Shown here: in pieces, positions 53,138 to 63,945 of the stretch
How positions within the stretch are numbered: the first letter of the stretch is position 1
How the letters are laid out: each line of letters begins with the position of its first letter
Assembly: GCF_013410345.1 (NCBI RefSeq)
Contig: NZ_JACCFJ010000001.1
Coordinates: forward strand, 4,506,501-4,570,500
Length of the DNA: 64,000 nt
Source: Saccharopolyspora hordei
GTDB lineage: Bacteria; Actinomycetota; Actinomycetes; Mycobacteriales; Pseudonocardiaceae
Direction of reading: 5' to 3'
Translations under genes and position numbers: made by a program
The notes under the pieces: generated by a model
The model's database searches: none
What the model saw: only the letters and a program-made list of their open reading frames with translations
What the model was told of the DNA's origin: nothing

Positions 53138-53616
53138 GCGCTTCGGCGTCCCTCCTGTGGCGTGGACCACTCCGCGGGCGGGCGAAGCGGATGACCATGT
53201 CCAGCCTGCCATGCCGGGGCGCCTGAACGATGCGGTCCACGTCACCGGAATCGCGTTCTGCCTGTTCGGAGCGCACTTTTCCGCTGGATGACCATCCGGC
53301 GAGGACCTCGAGATGTACAGATGTACACCAACGGTGTTAGGGTCTTCCGCAGCACTGAGACCGCTGACGCACCGGAGCCGAGGAATCGACCCGGCGCTGG
53401 AATTGGACGAAGACCGCGCACGGCCGCCACCGAATGCACCGCAGGAGGTGAAATCGCAGCACGGCGCGCCGACGCACCATTCGACGAATTCGCCCGGGTG
53501 CGGCGAGACGAATCGCGAGGCCAGTGCCCGCTCTCGCTGCAGTGATCACGCCGCGCAGTCGCGGCCGTGCGGTTCCAGCCCGGAATGCACGAATCAGACT
53601 TCACGGGGATACGAGC
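53138..53616. other. divergent intergenic region of the choline cluster
   Basis: No gene is supported in these 479 bases. They hold the TGTACA dyad at 53314-53327 and must contain both divergent promoters. The stretch is less GC-rich than its flanks, as promoter regions often are. Confidence 0.5.
53314..53327. promoter_or_regulatory. TGTACA-GA-TGTACA dyad, candidate TetR operator
   Basis: TGTACA occurs at 53314-53319 and again at 53322-53327. Since TGTACA is its own complement, the pair forms a 14-bp dyad with a two-base centre. It lies between the divergent tetR and aldehyde dehydrogenase genes. Confidence 0.5.
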
Positions 53617-55110
53617 ATGTCGCAAGCTGAGAATTCGGCCCCCACGCTGTTCATCGACGGCGAATGGGTGCGGGCCGCGGACGGCCGCGTCCGCGAGATC
53701 CGCTGTCCCGCCGACGGGACGCTGGTGGCCACCGTGGACGAGGCCGGGCGGGCCGACGCCGAGCGCGCCATCGCCGCAGCTCGCCGCACCTTCGACGAGG
53801 GCACGTGGGCGAGCAGCTCCGCGTGGGAGCGCGGGGACCTGCTGCTGCGGGTCAGCGACATCCTGAAGCGCGACAAGGCCGAGTTCGCCCGCGCCGAATC
53901 GCTCGACACCGGCAAGCGGCTGGTGGAGAGCGAGTACGACATGGACGACATCGCCGCCTGCTTCCGCTACTTCGGCAAGCTGGCCGGCACCGACGCGGGC
54001 CGGGTCGTCGACACCGGCTCGCCGGACTCGATCAGCCGCGTGCAGTACGAGCCGGTCGGCGTGTGCGGCATGATCACGCCCTGGAACTACCCGCTGCTGC
54101 AGGTGGCGTGGAAGGTCGCACCGGCCATCGCGGCGGGCGACACCTTCGTGCTCAAGCCCAGCGAGCTGACCCCCAGCACCGCGATCCTGCTGATGCGCGC
54201 GCTGCAGGAGGCCGGCCTGCCCGCCGGCGTCGGCAACCTCGTCCTGGGCACCGGCGCCGAGGTCGGCGCGGTGCTGTCCGAACACCCCGACGTGGACCTG
54301 ATCTCCTTCACCGGTGGCCTGCACACCGGCCGGAAGATCTCGGCCGCCGCGGCGCCGACGGTCAAGAAGGTCGCCCTGGAGCTGGGCGGCAAGAACCCGA
54401 ACGTCGTGTTCGCCGACGCCGACTTCGAGACCGCCGTGGACTACGCCCTGACCGCGGTGTTCCTGCACTCCGGCCAGGTGTGCTCGGCCGGTGCGCGGCT
54501 GATCGTGCAGGACGAGCTGCACGACGCGCTGGTGGACGAGATCGTGCGCCGCGCCGAGCAGATCCGCATCGGCGGTCCGTTCGACGAGGACGCCGAGACC
54601 GGTCCGCTGATCTCGGCCGCCCACCTGCAGAAGGTCGAGGACTACGTGGCCAAGTCCGTCGCCGAGGGCGCGGTGCTGCGCACCGGTGGCCGCCGCCCCG
54701 AGGGCGAGCGCTACGCCAACGGCCACTACTACCTGCCCACGGTGCTCGACGAGGTCGAGCAGGGCTCGTACGCGGTGACCGAGGAGTCCTTCGGCCCGGT
54801 GCTGACCGTGGAGCGCTTCTCCGACGAGGACGACGCGGTGCGCATCGCCAACGACACCCACTACGGCCTGGCCGGGGCGGTCTTCACCAGCGACCCCGCC
54901 AAGGCGCAGCGGGTCGCCAACCGGCTGCGGCACGGCACCGTCTGGATCAACGACTTCCACCCCTACCTGCCGCAGGCGGAGTGGGGCGGGTTCAAGCAGT
55001 CCGGCATCGGCCGGGAACTCGGCCGCGGCGGGCTCGGCGAGTACCAGGAGGCCAAGCACGTCTACCAGAACCTGCGGCCCGGCCCGCAGAACTGGTTCAC
55101 CGGCAAGTGA
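53617..55110 (+). CDS. betaine-aldehyde-type aldehyde dehydrogenase
   Basis: A 497-residue NAD-dependent aldehyde dehydrogenase. The cofactor segment is CGMITPWNYPLLQVAWKVAP. The catalytic Glu is in KKVALELGGKNPNVVFADAD, and the catalytic Cys in HSGQVCSAGARLIV. The C-terminal GFKQSGIGRELGRGGLGEY is standard. With choline oxidase and an APC permease downstream, the probable substrate is betaine aldehyde, giving glycine betaine. Since choline oxidase can do both steps, the enzyme may rescue escaping aldehyde. ATG 53617 follows GGGGAT. The permease gene starts 154 bases after its stop. Confidence 0.9.
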   Translation: MSQAENSAPTLFIDGEWVRAADGRVREIRCPADGTLVATVDEAGRADAERAIAAARRTFDEGTWASSSAWERGDLLLRVSDILKRDKAEFARAESLDTGKRLVESEYDMDDIAACFRYFGKLAGTDAGRVVDTGSPDSISRVQYEPVGVCGMITPWNYPLLQVAWKVAPAIAAGDTFVLKPSELTPSTAILLMRALQEAGLPAGVGNLVLGTGAEVGAVLSEHPDVDLISFTGGLHTGRKISAAAAPTVKKVALELGGKNPNVVFADADFETAVDYALTAVFLHSGQVCSAGARLIVQDELHDALVDEIVRRAEQIRIGGPFDEDAETGPLISAAHLQKVEDYVAKSVAEGAVLRTGGRRPEGERYANGHYYLPTVLDEVEQGSYAVTEESFGPVLTVERFSDEDDAVRIANDTHYGLAGAVFTSDPAKAQRVANRLRHGTVWINDFHPYLPQAEWGGFKQSGIGRELGRGGLGEYQEAKHVYQNLRPGPQNWFTGK

Positions 55111-55264
55111 GTGAGGTCCGTCGCTGCGGTGGTGTCCGGTCCACCGCAGCGACGGCCGCGCTGCCGCACGCGCCGCGCCAGCGAGTACGCGCGACGACAG
55201 CGACCACCCGGTCCAGCCCGCTCGCACCCGGCGGGCGGCGTTGACCGGGAAAGGAGTTCGGGGC

Positions 55265-56797
55265 ATGAGCGCGCCCAACTACGACGCCGAGCTCAACGAG
55301 TTCGGCTACACCAACAAACTGAAGAGGAGCCTCGGGGGTTTCCACACCTTCGCGGCCGGCATCAGCTACATCTCGGTGCTCACCGGCACCTTCCAACTGT
55401 CCTACTTCGGCTTGTCCCTCGGCGGACCCGCCTACTGGTGGTCGTGGCCGATCGTCTTCATCGGGCAGTTGCTCGTGGCGTTGAGCTTCGCCGAGCTGGC
55501 ATCCCGCTACCCGATCGCCGGCTCCGTCTACAACTGGGCGAAGAAGCTGGGCGGGCAGCACGTCGGCTGGTTGGCGGGCTGGATGATGCTGCTGGCCTCG
55601 ATCGTGTCGATCTCGGCCACCGCGCTGGCCTACCAGAACACCCTCCCCCAGATCTGGTCCGGGTTCCAGGTGGTCGGGGACAGCTCCAACAGCACCGACG
55701 CCGCGGTCAACGGCATCCTGCTGGCGCTGGTGCTGATCCTGTTCACCACGCTGGTCAACGCCTTCGGCGTCAAGCTGATGGCCCGCATCAACAGCAGCGG
55801 TGTGTTCATCGAGCTGATCGCCGCCGTGCTGCTGATCGTCGCGCTGGCGCTGGTCGCCGTGAACCCGCCGACCGTGGTGCTGGACACCAACGGCACCGAG
55901 AGCGCCTACGGCGGCAGCTACCTGACCGCGTTCCTGGTCGCCGGCATCGCCTCCTCGTACGTGATGTACGGCTTCGACACCGCCGCCTCGCTGGGCGAGG
56001 AGTCCATCGACCCGCACCGCAACGCGCCCAAGGCGATCCTGCGGGCGCTGATCGCCTCCTTCGTCCTCGGCGGCCTGATCATCCTGCTGGGCCTGATGGC
56101 CACCCGCGACTTCTCCGCGCCGGAGCTGAGCTCCAGCGGTCTGCAGTTCGTGCTCAACGACGCGCTGGGGCCGTTCATCGGCCGGTTGTTCCTGCTGGCC
56201 ATCTTCGTGGCGATCACGGTCTGCGTGCTGGCGGTGCACACCGCGGCCATCCGGATCGCCTTCGCCATGGCCCGCGACAACGCGCTGCCGGCGGGCAAGC
56301 TGCTGGCCCGCGTCAGCCCGCGGTTCCAGACTCCGGTGGTCCCCGCGATCGTCATCGGCGTGCTCGCGGTGGCGCTGCTGCTGGTCAACATCGGCCAGCC
56401 GCAGATCTTCACCGCGGTCACCAGCCTGGCGATCATCCTCATCTACATCTCGTACCTGCTGGTCACCGTGCCGATGCTGGTCGCGCGACTGCGCGGCAGG
56501 TGGAAGCCGGTCAAGGAGGAGGGCCGGTTCAGCCTCGGCAAGCTGGGGCTGCCGATCAACGTGCTGGCCGTGCTGTGGGGCGCCGGGATGACCATCAACC
56601 TCGCCTGGCCGCGCCGCGAGGTCTACAACGCCGAGCCGCCCTACCACTGGTACCTGCAGTACAGCTCGGTCCTGTTCGTCGGGATCGCGGCGGTTGCCGG
56701 ATTCGCGTACTACTGGTTCGTCCAGCGCCACAAGGTCGGCGTCCTGGCCGAGCACTCGTCCACTGCGGACGAGGACGAGACCATCCCGGTTGGCTGA
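55265..56797 (+). CDS. APC family permease, probable choline or related amine importer
   Basis: A 510-residue transporter with about 12 helices of the amino acid-polyamine-organocation superfamily. GGFHTFAAGISYISVLTGTF and SFAELASRYPIAGSVYNWAK mark the N-terminal half. SYVMYGFDTAASLGEESIDP and AFAMARDNALPAGKLLARVS mark the middle loops. GABA/choline permeases of fungi (HNM1/BAT1-type) belong to the same branch. AAAGGAG precedes ATG 55265. It lies between betaine aldehyde dehydrogenase and choline oxidase, so choline uptake is the natural inference. It ends 22 bases before the oxidase. Confidence 0.87.
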   Translation: MSAPNYDAELNEFGYTNKLKRSLGGFHTFAAGISYISVLTGTFQLSYFGLSLGGPAYWWSWPIVFIGQLLVALSFAELASRYPIAGSVYNWAKKLGGQHVGWLAGWMMLLASIVSISATALAYQNTLPQIWSGFQVVGDSSNSTDAAVNGILLALVLILFTTLVNAFGVKLMARINSSGVFIELIAAVLLIVALALVAVNPPTVVLDTNGTESAYGGSYLTAFLVAGIASSYVMYGFDTAASLGEESIDPHRNAPKAILRALIASFVLGGLIILLGLMATRDFSAPELSSSGLQFVLNDALGPFIGRLFLLAIFVAITVCVLAVHTAAIRIAFAMARDNALPAGKLLARVSPRFQTPVVPAIVIGVLAVALLLVNIGQPQIFTAVTSLAIILIYISYLLVTVPMLVARLRGRWKPVKEEGRFSLGKLGLPINVLAVLWGAGMTINLAWPRREVYNAEPPYHWYLQYSSVLFVGIAAVAGFAYYWFVQRHKVGVLAEHSSTADEDETIPVG

Positions 56798-56819
56798 GCA
56801 GAAACGGAGATTCGGACAC

Positions 56820-58367
56820 ATGACGGAACAGTTCGACTACGTGGTCGTCGGCGGCGGGAGCGCGGGTGCGGCCGTCGCGGCGCGGCTCTCCGAGGACCCG
56901 GACGTCACCGTCTGCCTGCTGGAGGCGGGCCCCTCGGACGTCGGCGACAAGGCGGTCCTGGAGCTCAAGCGCTGGATGGCGCTGCTGGAGTCCGGCTACG
57001 ACTGGGACTACCTGGTCGAACCGCAGGAGAACGGCAACTCCTTCATGCGGCACGCCCGGGCCCGGGTGCTCGGCGGCTGCTCCTCGCACAACTCCTGCAT
57101 CGCCTTCTGGGCGCCGGCCGAGGACCTCGACGAGTGGGAGTCGATGGGCTGCACCGGCTGGGGCGCCAAGGACGTCTTCCCGCTGTACCAGCGGCTGGAG
57201 AACAACGACGGGCCGGGCGACCACCACGGCCGCAGCGGCCCGGTCACCCTGCGCACCGTCCCGCCGAAGGACCCGTGCGGCGTCGCGCTGCTGCAGGCCT
57301 GTGAGCAGCAGGGCATCCCGACCACGCAGTTCAACTCCGGCAAGACCGTGGTGAACGGCGCCAACTGGTTCCAGATCAACGCCCGCGAGGACGGCACCCG
57401 CTCCTCGTCGTCGGTGTCCTACCTGCACCCGGTCCTGGACCGGCCGAACCTGGAGATCCGGACCAACGCGTGGGCCAAGAAGGTCGTCTTCGACGGCACC
57501 CGCGCCACCGGCGTGCAGTACCTGGACCCGGACCTGATCCACACCCGCACGGTGTCGACGCGCCGCGAGGTCGTGCTGTCCGCCGGTGCCATCGACACGC
57601 CGAAGCTGCTGATGCTGTCGGGCATCGGCCCGGCCGACCACCTGCGCGAGATCGGCATCGACGTGCTGGTCGACTCCCCCGGCGTCGGCTCCAACCTCCA
57701 GGACCACCCGGAGGGTGTGATCAGCTGGGAGGCCAAGAAGCCGATGGTCACCGACTCGACGCAGTGGTGGGAGATCGGCATCTTCACCACCACCGAGCCG
57801 GGCCTGGACCGGCCGGACCTGATGTTCCACTACGGGTCGGTGCCCTTCGACATGCACACCGTGCGGCAGGGCTACCCGACCTCGGAGAACAGCTTCTGCC
57901 TGACCCCGAACGTCACCCACGCCCGCTCGAAGGGCACGGTGCGGCTGCGCAGCCGCGACTTCCGGGACAAGCCGAAGGTCGACCCGCGGTACTTCACCGA
58001 CCCGCACGACATGCGGGTGATGACCGCCGGCATCAAGCTGGCCCGCGAGATCGTGGCGCAGCCGGCGATGCAGGAGTGGGCGGGCGCGGAGCTGTTCCCG
58101 GGCCCGGACGTGCAGACCGACGACGAGATCGCCGACTACATCAAGCGCACCCACAACACCGTCTACCACCCGGCGTGCACGGTGGCGATGGGTGCCGACG
58201 ACGACCAGAGCAAGCCGCTGGACGCGCGGCTGCGGGTCAAGGGCGTCCAGGGCCTGCGCGTCGCCGACGCCTCGGTGATGCCGTTCCTGGTCACGGTGAA
58301 CCCGAACATCACCACCATGGCGATCGGTGAGAAGTGCTCGGACATGGTGAAGGAAGACAACCGCTGA
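56820..58367 (+). CDS. codA: choline oxidase (GMC oxidoreductase)
   Basis: A 515-residue FAD-dependent GMC oxidoreductase that oxidises choline through betaine aldehyde to glycine betaine, using oxygen. It resembles Arthrobacter globiformis choline oxidase closely along its length. The FAD fold is FDYVVVGGGSAGAAVAARLS. The flavin-linking His is His90 in GGCSSHNSCIAFWAP. The substrate-binding Glu is Glu318 in STQWWEIGIF. The catalytic His450 (NTVYHPACTVAMG) and Asn494 (TVNPNITTM) are both present. All residues known to matter in the Arthrobacter enzyme are conserved. ATG 56820 is 22 bases after the permease stop. Choline oxidase is distinct from membrane BetA. Confidence 0.93.
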   Translation: MTEQFDYVVVGGGSAGAAVAARLSEDPDVTVCLLEAGPSDVGDKAVLELKRWMALLESGYDWDYLVEPQENGNSFMRHARARVLGGCSSHNSCIAFWAPAEDLDEWESMGCTGWGAKDVFPLYQRLENNDGPGDHHGRSGPVTLRTVPPKDPCGVALLQACEQQGIPTTQFNSGKTVVNGANWFQINAREDGTRSSSSVSYLHPVLDRPNLEIRTNAWAKKVVFDGTRATGVQYLDPDLIHTRTVSTRREVVLSAGAIDTPKLLMLSGIGPADHLREIGIDVLVDSPGVGSNLQDHPEGVISWEAKKPMVTDSTQWWEIGIFTTTEPGLDRPDLMFHYGSVPFDMHTVRQGYPTSENSFCLTPNVTHARSKGTVRLRSRDFRDKPKVDPRYFTDPHDMRVMTAGIKLAREIVAQPAMQEWAGAELFPGPDVQTDDEIADYIKRTHNTVYHPACTVAMGADDDQSKPLDARLRVKGVQGLRVADASVMPFLVTVNPNITTMAIGEKCSDMVKEDNR

Positions 58368-59637: not shown

Positions 59638-60001
59638 TGGCCTCACCTCGCAACTTCGGGGTCTGACAAGGGGGCCGCGCGGCGATCCGAATGCTTACCG
59701 ACGAGTAGGCACGGCGTCAACGCGCTCGTCGTTCCCACAATTCCCACCGGACACCCAGCGCTACCCGTGATCGTCCGCCGCGTCCCGCACAACCGCCTGC
59801 CGGATGAACGCCGTTGCGATGAACGAGGATCCGTCACCGCGAGTGCGCGACGCGCGGTGATCACCGCCCTGCCGTCGGGGTGGTTGCACGCTCACCCGGA
59901 GCGTGCCGGGCCGGTGAGCGTTGCCGCTGGTCCGAACGCAGTCCCCGGTGCACCCGTTGTGACGAGGCCGCGCGGTGCACCTCTCGGACAAGATGATCGG
60001 C
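59638..60001. other. intergenic region between divergent secreted protein and LLM genes
   Basis: No gene is supported in these 364 bases. A perfect 14-base dyad GCGGTGATCACCGC lies at 59854-59867, well placed for an operator. Confidence 0.45.
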
Positions 60002-60892
60002 ATGCGACTGGGACTGACGCTGCCGCAGTTCGGCCCGTTCTCCGACCCGACCCTGGTGCCCACGGTGGCCGCCGAAGCCGAAGCGCTCGGCTTCGAGAGC
60101 CTCTGGACGGGCGAGCGCGTGCACGCCGCGACCGACCCGATCACCCCGTACCCGGGTGGCACCATGCCCGAGGAGTTCCGCAGCGCGCTCGACCCGCTGC
60201 TGGTGCTGACGCTCGCGGCGCACGCCACCACCCGCCCGCTGCTGGGCACCAGCACGCTGAGCGCCCCGCTGCACGCCCCGGTCCACCTGGCCCGCAGCCT
60301 CGCCGGGATCGACCGGCTCAGCGGTGGACGGCTCATCGCCGGGTTCGGGCTGAGCTGGTCGCGCGACGAGTACGACGCGGTCGCGGTGCCGTGGCGGGAG
60401 CGCGGGGCGCGGCTGGACGAGACGCTGGACGTGCTGGCGGCCCTCTGGTCTGACGACCCGGTGCAGCACCGCGGCCGGTTCTGGACCGTCACCCCCGGCA
60501 CGTTCCAGCCCAAGCCCGCCCAGTCACACGTGCCGATCTACCTGGGCGGGGTGTCGCCGGCCGCGTTCCGCCGCATCGGCCGCCGCGCGGACGGCTGGCT
60601 GGGGGTGGCGATGCCGGTGCCTGCGCTGCGGGACGTGCTGGCGAGCATCGCCGAGCAGGCCCGGCAGGCCGGGCGCGGCCCGATCGCCACCGCCGTGCGC
60701 ATCAACGCCAAGCTCCAGGCCACCGCGACCGACACCCCGGGCACCGGCCCGGTCGAGCAGCTCGCGGACCACCTGCACGAGCTCGCCGAGCTGGGCGTCG
60801 AGGACGCCTTCGTCGACCTGCAGTTCAGCACCTCCACCCCGGCCGAGCTGCTGGACACCGCCGCGCGCATCCGCACCGCCTTCCAGCCCTGA
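60002..60892 (+). CDS. LLM-class (F420-type) flavin oxidoreductase
   Basis: A 296-residue luciferase-like monooxygenase fold protein. MRLGLTLPQFGPFSDPTLVP, ARSLAGIDRLSGGRLIAGFG and SHVPIYLGGVSPAAFRRIGR are typical of the actinobacterial LLM F420-dependent group. It probably reduces or oxidises a small molecule with F420 or FMN. The substrate is unknown. ATG 60002 is favoured; ATG 59993 is possible. It lies 97 bases upstream of the HAD/APH/ACAD operon but is separated from it by that operon's own operator. Confidence 0.87.
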   Translation: MRLGLTLPQFGPFSDPTLVPTVAAEAEALGFESLWTGERVHAATDPITPYPGGTMPEEFRSALDPLLVLTLAAHATTRPLLGTSTLSAPLHAPVHLARSLAGIDRLSGGRLIAGFGLSWSRDEYDAVAVPWRERGARLDETLDVLAALWSDDPVQHRGRFWTVTPGTFQPKPAQSHVPIYLGGVSPAAFRRIGRRADGWLGVAMPVPALRDVLASIAEQARQAGRGPIATAVRINAKLQATATDTPGTGPVEQLADHLHELAELGVEDAFVDLQFSTSTPAELLDTAARIRTAFQP

Positions 60893-60961: not shown

Positions 60962-60977
60962 TACCGGCTAGTCGGTA
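60962..60977. promoter_or_regulatory. TetR-type operator TACCGGCTAGTCGGTA
   Basis: A nearly perfect dyad TACCGGCTAGTCGGTA (only one mismatched pair) ends 12 bases before the HAD gene start, so it overlaps the transcription start. It differs from the operators at 834 and 7200 and would need a different repressor. None is encoded nearby in the window. Confidence 0.65.
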
Positions 60978-60989
60978 CGGTCCTGGGTC

Positions 60990-61709
60990 ATGGGTTCCGG
61001 TGACGCAACCCGCCCGGCGCGGGCGGTCGTCTTCGACTACGGCGGAGTGCTGACCACCCCCAGCCGCGTCGCCCTGCGCGGGTGGATGGAGCAGGAGGGC
61101 GTCCTCCCGGAGACCTTCTCCGCCGCGCTCAAGGAGTGGCTGTCGCGCAGCGCCCCGCCCGGCACCCCGATCCACCGGCTGGAGACCGGTGAGATCAGCG
61201 CCGAGGAGTTCAACCGCACCCTCGCGCAGCGGCTGCGCACCCGCGACGGCGGCCCGGTCGCGCCGGAGGGACTGCTGCAGCGCATGTTCGCGCGGTTGGA
61301 CAGCGAACCGGCCATGCTCGACCTGGTGCGCGCCCTGCGGCAGCGGGGCGTGCGCACCGCGCTGCTGTCCAACAGCTGGGGCAACGAGTACCCGTGGGAC
61401 GTGCTCGACGGGCTGTTCGAGGTCACCGTCGTCTCCGCGGACGTCCGGCTGCGCAAACCCGACCCGCGGATCTACCGCCTGGTGCTCGACCGCCTCGGCC
61501 TGCCCGCGGAGCAGGTGGTGTTCGTCGACGACGGCGCCCCCAACGTCGACGCCGCCGAGCAGCTGGGCATGCGCGCGGTGCTGCACACCGACCCGGCGGA
61601 CACCCGCGCCCGGATCGCCGAGCTCACCGCGACACCCGTGGACGTCGAACCCCCGATCGCACCGGACGGCGCAGCAGGAGCCGCCCCGCGAGGCAAGGAG
61701 ACCCGATGA
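60990..61709 (+). CDS. HAD-like protein of the ACAD10-type operon
   Basis: A 239-residue haloacid dehalogenase-fold protein. Motif I is VVFDYGGVLTTPS: the nucleophile Asp is present, but the second Asp, the usual acid/base of phosphatases, is Gly. Motif II (LLSNSWG), motif III Lys (RLRKPDPRIYRLVL) and motif IV (VVFVDDGAPNVDAA) are intact. The same FDxGGVL form occurs in the HAD part of epoxide hydrolase and ACAD10 proteins. It shares four bases with the kinase-like gene that follows. In human ACAD10 this domain is fused to the next two. It is the first gene after the TetR-type operator. Confidence 0.88.
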   Translation: MGSGDATRPARAVVFDYGGVLTTPSRVALRGWMEQEGVLPETFSAALKEWLSRSAPPGTPIHRLETGEISAEEFNRTLAQRLRTRDGGPVAPEGLLQRMFARLDSEPAMLDLVRALRQRGVRTALLSNSWGNEYPWDVLDGLFEVTVVSADVRLRKPDPRIYRLVLDRLGLPAEQVVFVDDGAPNVDAAEQLGMRAVLHTDPADTRARIAELTATPVDVEPPIAPDGAAGAAPRGKETR

Positions 61710-62734
61710 CCGCCGAACCGCTGCCCGGTCTGGACCTGGACCGGCTGCGCGCCCACCTCGACGCCGAACTGCCCGGCCTGCTCGCCGGCCCGCTCACCGG
61801 CGAGCTCGTCCAAGGCGGACGGTCCAACCTGACGTACGTGGTCAGCGACGGCCGGCAGCGCTGGGTGGTGCGCCGCCCGCCGCTGGGCCACGTGCTGGCC
61901 ACCGCGCACGACATGGGCCGCGAGTTCCGGGTGATGTCCGCGCTGGCCGGCACCCACGTGCCGGTCCCGCGCACCCACCTGCTCTGCCAGGACGACAGCG
62001 TGCTCGGCGCCCCGTTCTACGTCATGGAGCACGTCCCGGGCACCGTGTACCGGACCCCGCAGCTGACCGAGCAGCTGACGCCGCAGCAGCGCGTCGAGCT
62101 GTCCTGGCAGCTGGTGGACGTGCTCGCCGACCTGCACGCCATCGACCCGGAGTCGGTGGGGCTGGGCGACTTCGGCCGGCCGCAGGGCTTCCTGGAGCGG
62201 CAGGTGCGGCGCTGGAGCAAGCAGCTGGCCGCGTCCCGCAGCCGCGACATCGACGGCATCGAGGAGCTGGCCTCCCGGCTGGGTGAGCGCGTCCCCAGCA
62301 CGCCGCGCGCGGGCATCGTGCACGGCGACTACCGGCTGGACAACGTGATCGTCGGCGACGACCAGCGGATCCGGGCCGTGCTCGACTGGGAGATGGCCAC
62401 CCTCGGCGACCCGCTCACCGACCTCGGCCTGCTCGCGGTGTACTGGGAGGGGTTCAGCGGGGTCGAGCAGAACCCGATCGCCAAGGGCGTCGGCCCGGAG
62501 TACGGCTTCCCCACCGCGCAGCAGCTCATCGACCGCTACGTCGAGCGCAGCGGCGACCCGCTGGCCGACCTGGACTGGTACCTCGCCTTCGGCTTCTTCA
62601 AGATCGCGGTGATCTTGGAGGGCATCCACTACCGCTTCATCCACGGCCAGACCGTCGGCGACGGCTTCGAGCACGTCGGCGCCCTGGTGGCACCCCTCGT
62701 CGCGCAGGGCTTGGCGACCCTCAAGGAGGAATGA
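61706..62734 (+). CDS. aminoglycoside phosphotransferase-like kinase of the ACAD10-type operon
   Basis: A 342-residue kinase-fold protein. The nucleotide-binding start is [20 protein letters not shown]. The catalytic loop is [20 protein letters not shown] (HGDxxxxN). The metal site is [20 protein letters not shown]. These are the ACAD10/11-type APH signatures. In mammals the corresponding domain phosphorylates the 4-hydroxyl of 4-hydroxyacyl-CoA so that the dehydrogenase domain can remove it, and LvaA in Pseudomonas does the same in levulinate use. A 4-hydroxyacyl-CoA kinase role is therefore the best inference. It starts at ATG 61706 and ends against the dehydrogenase gene. Confidence 0.9.
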
Positions 62735-63945
62735 TGGATTTCGGCTTCGACGCACGCACCGAGGAACTGCGCGAGCAGCTCCTCGACTTCATGGACTCCC
62801 ACATCTACCCAGCCGAACCGGTCTTCCTGCAGCAGCTCGCCGAGGCCGAGGACCCGTGGGCAGCGCACCCGCCGATCATGGAGGAGCTCAAGGCCGAAGC
62901 GCGCAAGCGCGGGTTGTGGAACCTCTTCCTGCCCGGTGAGCACGGCGCCGGGCTGACCAACCTGCAGTACGCGCCGCTGGCCGAGATCATGGGCCGGTCC
63001 GGCAGGCTGGCCCCGGAGGCCACCAACTGCTCCGCCCCGGACACCGGCAACATGGAGGTGCTGGCGCAGTTCGGCACCGAGGAGCAGAAGAAGCAGTGGC
63101 TGGAACCGCTGCTGGCGGGGGAGATCCGCTCCGCGTTCTGCATGACCGAACCCGACGTGGCCTCGTCCGACGCCACCAACATCGGCACCCGCATCGAGCG
63201 CGACGGCGACCACTACGTGATCAACGGTCGCAAGTGGTTCTCCTCCGGGGCGATGAGCCCGCGCTGCAAGGTCCTCATCGTCATGGGCAAGACCGACCCG
63301 AACGCCGAGCGGCACCGCCAGCAGAGCCAGGTCCTGGTGCCCAAGGACACCCCGGGCGTGCGGATCGTGCGCAGCATGAACGTCTTCGGCTACACCGACG
63401 CCGACCACGGTGGGCACGCCGAGATCGTCTTCGAGGACGTCCGGGTGCCGGTGGAGAACGTCATCGCCGGGGAGGGCGAGGGCTTCGCCATCGCCCAGGC
63501 GCGGCTCGGCCCGGGCCGCATCCACCACTGCATGCGCGCGATCGGGATGGCCGAACGGGCGCTGGAGATGATGTGCCGCCGCACCAACGAGCGCGTCGCC
63601 TTCGGCAAGCCGCTGGCCGACCAGGGCGTCATCCAGCACTGGATCGCCGAGTCGCGGGTCAAGATCGAGCAGGCGCGGCTGCTGGTGCTCAAGACCGCGT
63701 GGCTGATGGACACCGTGGGCAACAAGGGCGCGCACACCGAGATCCAGGCGATCAAGGTGGCGGTGCCGGAGATGGCCACCTGGGTCATCGACCGCGCCAT
63801 CCAGGCCCACGGCGGCGGTGGCGTCAGCCAGGAGTTCCCGCTGGCCAACCTCTACGCCCACGCCCGGACCCTGCACATCGTCGACGGCCCCGACGAGGTG
63901 CACCGCCGCTCGCTGGCCCGCCGCGAGCTGAAGAAGTACCGCTGA
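62734..63945 (+). CDS. acyl-CoA dehydrogenase of the ACAD10/11 type
   Basis: A 403-residue acyl-CoA dehydrogenase. It begins [20 protein letters not shown] and has [20 protein letters not shown], with a TEPDVASSD flavin loop typical of ACAD10/11, then [20 protein letters not shown] and [18 protein letters not shown] at the end. Standard bacterial FadE enzymes read TEPxAGSD. With the preceding kinase it should convert a phosphorylated 4-hydroxyacyl-CoA to an enoyl-CoA that can enter beta-oxidation. ATG 62734 has AAGGAGG upstream; ATG 62731 is adjacent. The three genes overlap by single codons and surely form one operon. Confidence 0.92.

Follow-up and report, generated by a model that had tools for sequence, protein, structure and literature searches.

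A HAD, kinase and ACAD11-class dehydrogenase operon of Saccharopolyspora hordei and its predicted role in 4-hydroxy acid breakdown

What the HAD domain of human ACAD10 does is not settled. An operon of Saccharopolyspora hordei encodes a HAD protein, a kinase, and an acyl-CoA dehydrogenase as separate neighbours, which raises the question of what such a HAD protein does beside such a kinase and on which substrate the set acts. The operon lies in the last part of the window, the whole stretch of 64,000 nucleotides that was analysed. An earlier, sequence-only reading of this DNA proposed that the three genes are a bacterial counterpart of ACAD10, controlled by a TetR-type repressor and used for the catabolism of 4-hydroxy acids.

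Operon layout and the shared operator

The three open reading frames proposed as HAD, APH-type kinase, and acyl-CoA dehydrogenase were confirmed through their Pfam domains, all on the plus strand (Table 1), with overlaps of 4 bases at both the HAD/kinase and kinase/dehydrogenase junctions. The interval assigned to the unit, 60962-63945, does contain the trio and the dyad, but the operon continues past 63945: an SDR gene starts shortly after it and more genes lie beyond. The two dehydrogenases that follow the SDR are nearest to the PimC and PimD/IpdE2 models, with scores below the cut-offs of those models. Directly upstream of the HAD operon, on the same strand, an F420-dependent LLM oxidoreductase (TIGR03619, 224 bits) is encoded at window positions 59975-60892 (+); an LLM oxidoreductase gene also precedes the HAD operon in four of the regions from 14 relatives, although some regions are too short to show it. 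Farther upstream, a row of ORFs at 53524-58367 (+), judged from their translations only to be aldehyde dehydrogenase, permease-like, and choline-dehydrogenase-like, looks like choline/betaine metabolism.

Table 1. Positions of the operon's features, in window coordinates except for the last row.
Feature	Position	Strand	Remarks
TetR-type operator dyad TACCGGCTAGTCGGTA (predicted)	60962-60977	.	12 bases 5′ of HAD start
HAD-IA phosphatase-like protein (P0001)	60990-61709	+	PF00702; nucleophile D16, D-x-G motif, S127, K156, D180/D181
APH-fold kinase, LvaA/ACAD10-11 type (P0002)	61706-62734	+	PF01636, 189 bits
ACAD10/11/LvaC-class dehydrogenase (P0003), predicted substrate 4-phosphoacyl-CoA	62731-63945	+	PF02771/PF02770/PF00441
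FabG-like SDR, fourth operon gene: start codon	63998-64000	+	gene continues past window end
Further operon genes outside window: two dehydrogenases and MaoC	L001:6999-10566		after the SDR

The dyad is the sole match to its own pattern in the window at up to one mismatch (0.03 expected), and the pattern TACCGRCNNGYCGGTA has one exact match in the single-contig genome of 5.78 Mb, which is the dyad itself. A looser search of the genome, at up to two mismatches, gives 108 matches vs. 50 for the reversed pattern. Among the best 30 loci (L002-L031, with this genome among them), 25 carry the dyad 5′ of the HAD gene with at most one mismatch; these are the loci ordered HAD, kinase, dehydrogenase, and all 25 come from one family of bacteria. 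The TetR-type dyad claimed for the promoter is thus present and kept in the nearest relatives, but its presumed partner is not close by: the ORFs of the interval 60962-63945 include no TetR gene, and the likely one lies past the window end, at a distance of ~10 kb. It belongs to a second, facing (convergent) operon composed of ligase, SDR, SDR, TetR, ligase, and AbgT-family transporter genes, with a copy of the dyad bearing one mismatch ~20 bases 5′ of the first gene. The one ligase of this operon that was scanned is nearest to long-chain models, below cut-off. A simple scan of L001:3700-10700 gave no sigma-70 promoter.

Conservation of both operons was followed in 14 relatives' regions, which were picked by hand and fetched. 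The ten nearest regions all retain the HAD, kinase, and ACAD11-class genes as well as MaoC; from the facing operon they all retain the two SDRs and TetR (75-96% identical), and the operator is present in both copies. The two dehydrogenases are kept in nine of these regions, SDR1 in eight, and the transporter in five. One or both of this genome's ligases are kept in eight, and the other two show neither. Three more distant regions (L171-L173) have the HAD, kinase, dehydrogenase, and operator and none of the other genes, and the remaining region has dehydrogenase, TetR, and HAD. The HAD of S. kobensis, the nearest named contig, is 81% identical to P0001. A narrow peptide-pattern search of genome contigs returned 11 loci, with the whole trio in two.

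A 55-kb Tsukamurella plasmid (NZ_LR134470.1, L236) carries counterparts of nine of the genes in one stretch, along with genes for a ligase and a member of the phosphotriesterase family. The counterparts are identical at 51% (HAD), 51% (kinase), 71% (ACAD11), 70% (SDR1), 55% (MaoC), 70% (ACADa), 44% (ACADb), 56% (SDR2), and 66% (SDR3). The phosphotriesterase-family gene, which was met in this locus only, is nearest to 4if2 and 2vc5; enzymes of this family can act on lactones. The stretch contains no match to the TetR of S. hordei, and no dyad lies 5′ of its HAD gene. By sequence, the two facing operons share one operator and one TetR in the ten nearest relatives; TetR is predicted to bind both operators and to respond to an acyl-CoA ligand. 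The shared operator could be used to report on the natural inducer, and through it on the substrate.

The kinase and the dehydrogenase

P0002 is homologous over its full length to the kinase domain of ACAD11 (E 7e-54), and the structures 9o56 and 3dxp match it better still; matches to antibiotic kinases are weak (E 1e-6 or worse). D208 and N213 of P0002 correspond to the catalytic Asp/Asn pair. R176 of ACAD11, which contacts CoA, corresponds to R165, whereas the CoA-contacting R86 has no clear counterpart: it falls on F74 at the offset that fits the other residues, although an Arg, R72, adjoins E73. P0002 is predicted to phosphorylate the 4-hydroxyl of 4-hydroxyacyl-CoA. A second kinase of the same family is encoded in this genome at G000:C1:4136787-4137743 (-), with an E-value of 5e-87.

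P0003 matches ACAD11 (2wbi, 8v3u) and 4hr3 at E 1e-137 to 4e-142, and its best match to an ordinary dehydrogenase is 5e-51, as searched against the PDB only. The TEPDVASSD loop, noted earlier as a mark of this dehydrogenase group, is present in P0003 and is indeed the same in 2wbi and 4hr3. In mouse ACAD11, the 4-phosphate is stabilised by R626, H634, and R637, and D753 acts as catalytic base (PMC12440821). Once the PDB chain numbering is shifted by one residue, these residues correspond to R258, H266, R269, and D385 of P0003, and R263 completes a set of five sites. The catalytic position is Asp (D385) in P0003 and Glu in the ordinary dehydrogenase 4u83. The 8v3v chain has Asn in place of D753, which is consistent with the A* mutant described in PMC12440821.

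In the loci scanned, the five-site pattern R-R-H-R-D occurs in 43/43 distinct ACAD11-class rows (E < 1e-60, letters at all five sites). Of 110 rows, 50 that were gapped at one of these positions had been dropped, and 9 of the 52 ACAD11-class rows counted before repeats were removed were such repeats. Above the E 1e-60 line, the pattern occurs in one of eight rows, that of locus L074 (E 3e-58), whose dehydrogenase is probably a diverged member of the ACAD11 class. By its matches and these residues, P0003 is firmly assigned to the ACAD10/11/LvaC class, and its conversion of 4-phosphoacyl-CoA to 2-enoyl-CoA is strongly suggested.

The HAD protein and its partnership with the kinase

TIGR02247, which we take to include the HAD of ACAD10, matches P0001 at 100.5 bits, under its curated cut-off of 125.4. 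Among the PDB matches listed for the three proteins there is no ACAD10 sequence. Other linked HADs score 78-90 (four linked to a kinase) and 83 (one linked to a dehydrogenase), and five unlinked HADs score 103 (L119), 129, 182, 186, and 188. In a tree of 92 HADs, from which rows shorter than 180 aa, rows containing stops, duplicates, seven loci set aside by hand because they were repeats or came from this genome, and hence P0001 itself were left out, all linked HADs fall into one clade of 61 members (support 96/94), in a topology with some long branches and uneven inner support. Within this clade, 44 HADs occur with the kinase and four with the dehydrogenase, while 13 lack both in the sequence that was read; 0/31 outside it are linked. 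P0001, when added back, joins the same clade (support 96/95). The P0001 group is placed by its sequences as the sister of TIGR02247. Because P0001 stays under the cut-off of TIGR02247 and belongs to a sister clade, a common origin with the HAD of ACAD10 is not supported.

HAD and kinase lie on one strand in 43 of the 44 loci that have both, with the HAD first in 27 and the kinase first in 17, and are mostly spaced by 20-90 bases. A phylum sample of 198 genomes yielded a HAD at E ≤ 1e-25 in 40. At 29 loci of this sample (L044-L072), a kinase was found within 1.5 kb of the HAD in 17, as kinase-then-HAD in 16 and on opposite strands in one, and no kinase was found at 13 weaker HAD places (L118-L130). 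From 114 actinobacterial kinase places, 20 were chosen for having no adjoining HAD, and the 0/20 with a HAD among them is a result of this selection. Loci are often flanked by contig ends, so that their flanks are cut.

Gene orders elsewhere include kinase-HAD, dehydrogenase-kinase-HAD, and HAD-FabG-MaoC-kinase-dehydrogenase. Because the order varies among relatives, it is no proof of descent and was ruled out as proof of ACAD10 ancestry. The idea of an ACAD10 counterpart therefore stands for the HAD-kinase-dehydrogenase order at this locus, but is weakened by the varying order elsewhere and by the HAD's place below the cut-off and in the sister clade. Fusions of HAD and kinase were considered for bacteria, and the loci scanned contain none, nor any ORF with two domains of the trio. 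A HAD partner in Pseudomonadota was likewise rejected: the best HAD match in 249 genomes has an E-value of 3e-25, a kinase lies within 1.5 kb in 0/30 fetched HAD loci, and a HAD (E 1e-10) occurs in 0/40 kinase windows.

Whether P0001 is likely to be an active enzyme depends on how its D-x-G motif, with Gly in place of the second Asp, is read. D-x-G is found in 61/61 members of the linked clade, in 31/31 HADs outside it, and in E. coli YihX, while D16, K156, D180, and D181 are invariant in the 61-member clade and the Ser is kept in 60/61, with Thr in one. An AlphaFold model of the HAD (pLDDT 84, six rows) has its closest structural matches, with TM-scores near 0.6, in YihX and in the phosphatase domain of soluble epoxide hydrolase (sEH). 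As far as titles go, YihX is a glucose-1-phosphatase and the 8pno entry is a transition-state-analogue complex. D-x-G, present in all 92 HADs of the tree and in YihX, was therefore discarded as a sign that a HAD is inactive in the manner of ACAD10. The motif by itself does not mean a dead enzyme; catalytic activity of P0001 is putative.

The alternative that survives best is that the HAD is a non-catalytic brake, binding the kinase and throttling it on a metabolite, as has been proposed for ACAD10. The HAD of ACAD10 likewise lacks the second Asp, a feature to which its negligible phosphatase activity has been tied, and the D48A change raises kinase output and yields more phospho-intermediate (PMC11342911). 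The D-x-G motif of P0001 and the way the HAD tracks the kinase across loci would fit such a brake, which is a real possibility, though not the favoured one. However, it is opposed by the generality of D-x-G, including in YihX with its 8pno entry, by the conservation of the remaining catalytic residues, and by a histidine phosphatase gene, not related to the HAD, that lies close to some of the kinases in other phyla. Hydrolysis by the HAD of 4-phosphoacyl-CoA or of a stalled by-product is considered somewhat more likely than a non-catalytic brake.

The histidine phosphatase, unrelated to the HAD, was met in D. radiodurans, where its gene follows the kinase gene. Of 40 kinase windows from Pseudomonadota, each 11 kb long and taken by score from 82 places with second places of the same genome skipped, 12 contain a relative of this protein, all on the kinase strand (L177, L178, L183, L185, L187, L189, L192-L194, L201, L211, and L214), and 28 contain neither phosphatase; the profile used was built from the Deinococcus protein and its matches in these same loci. 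Two of the 20 chosen actinobacterial kinase windows contain it, both on the kinase strand, as compared with 0/43 kinase-free HAD loci, the windows of which are smaller (~3.3 kb or 5-9 kb vs. 11 kb). That this kinase has a phosphatase gene of separate ancestry near it in other phyla points to a concrete hypothesis, namely the clearing of the phospho-CoA intermediate. In its widest form, this would mean that bacterial 4-hydroxyacyl-CoA kinases are accompanied by a phosphatase dedicated to removing stalled 4-phosphoacyl-CoA, drawn from the HAD clade in actinobacteria and from the histidine phosphatases in part of Pseudomonadota and in Deinococcus, and that the HAD of ACAD10 is a fused, catalytically competent form reached separately; this generalisation is speculative and rather doubtful.

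It is unlikely that the HAD acts elsewhere, for example on a side product of other steps or on a sugar phosphate, and is merely co-transcribed. Its best solved relatives, the sEH phosphatase domain and YihX, would agree with another substrate, as would the FabG and MaoC genes that sit between HAD and kinase in Tsukamurella and R. opacus, but in the remaining 41 of the 44 loci with both genes, HAD and kinase are separated by just 20-172 bases, in either order.

Proposed pathway and comparison with known systems

The preferred reading, which is considered likely, is that the operon breaks down 4-hydroxy acids, or the gamma-lactones that they form, through the kinase and the ACAD11-class enzyme, with the HAD controlling the 4-phosphoacyl-CoA pool and TetR repressing both operons. 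A ligase, which in this genome would come from the co-regulated convergent operon, would first make the 4-hydroxyacyl-CoA. The kinase, judged by its residues and relatives, would then phosphorylate the 4-hydroxyl with ATP, and the ACAD11-class enzyme with FAD would expel the phosphate and leave 2-enoyl-CoA, which MaoC, SDR, and further dehydrogenases may take on via beta-oxidation. As the partner of the kinase, the HAD would hold down the pool of 4-phosphoacyl-CoA, while the TetR of the convergent operon would repress both operons until its acyl-CoA ligand arrives. A regulated 4-hydroxyacyl-CoA unit had been predicted before, and the prediction is upheld by the ACAD11-class residues R258, R263, H266, R269, and D385, by D208/N213 of the kinase, and by the operator kept in the nearest relatives; as a putative route, the step from 4-hydroxyacyl-CoA to enoyl-CoA is well supported. 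Several observations count against the preferred reading: the D48A and phosphatase results for ACAD10, which favour a regulatory HAD; the 13 clade members with neither kinase nor dehydrogenase close by; the ligases, SDR1, and transporter missing from some of the nearest regions, and the other genes from L171-L173; the Tsukamurella stretch with neither a match to this TetR nor the dyad; the single sighting of the phosphotriesterase-family gene; and R86 of ACAD11. The substrate and the role of the HAD are what we infer from this setting, and a medium or branched chain would be a guess. Processing of levulinate (4-oxopentanoate), as by the lva operon, is improbable. The LvaA/LvaC-type kinase and dehydrogenase and the SDRs and (in 8/10 nearest regions) ligase of the facing operon would suit it, but the two extra dehydrogenases (nearest PimC and PimD/IpdE2) and the long-chain-like ligase, all below cut-off, hint otherwise, and nothing found favours the levulinate-type substrate suggested earlier over other 4-hydroxy acids or gamma-lactones.

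The chemistry of LvaA/LvaC and ACAD10/11 has been published, and ACAD10/11, and as reported LvaC, expel phosphate to leave 2-enoyl-CoA (PMC11342911, PMC12440821). The open-licence papers listed in literature searches included no report of a bacterial HAD beside this kinase. The present analysis adds the association of HAD and kinase in actinobacteria, in both orders, the layout of two operons with a shared operator, the continuation of the operon beyond 63945, the HAD's place in a sister group of TIGR02247, the absence of the second Asp from YihX as well, and the histidine phosphatase gene near 12 of 40 Pseudomonadota kinases.

The nearest solved structures to the HAD model, E. coli YihX and the sEH phosphatase domain, are ~24-27% identical to it by fold alignment, and we know of no link of either to such a kinase. 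In the lva operon of Pseudomonas putida, the kinase LvaA and the dehydrogenase LvaC are of the same type as those of S. hordei and are likewise encoded by separate genes, but their neighbours differ, and the lva operon has no homolog of the HAD domain of ACAD10, as stated in PMC12440821. Mammalian ACAD11 (2wbi, 8v3u) resembles the S. hordei proteins in its dehydrogenase (E 4e-142), including the phosphate-binding residues, and in its kinase (E 7e-54), but ACAD11 is fused and lacks a HAD, whereas the S. hordei unit is unfused and has one. Mammalian ACAD10 has the same three parts in the same order, with kinase and dehydrogenase of the same families. However, ACAD10 is a single polypeptide, while S. 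hordei uses separate genes, its HAD belongs to the sister group of TIGR02247, and the gene order of its relatives varies. With the trio present as three separate proteins, in vitro work can omit, mutate, or restore the HAD with no fused polypeptide to disrupt.
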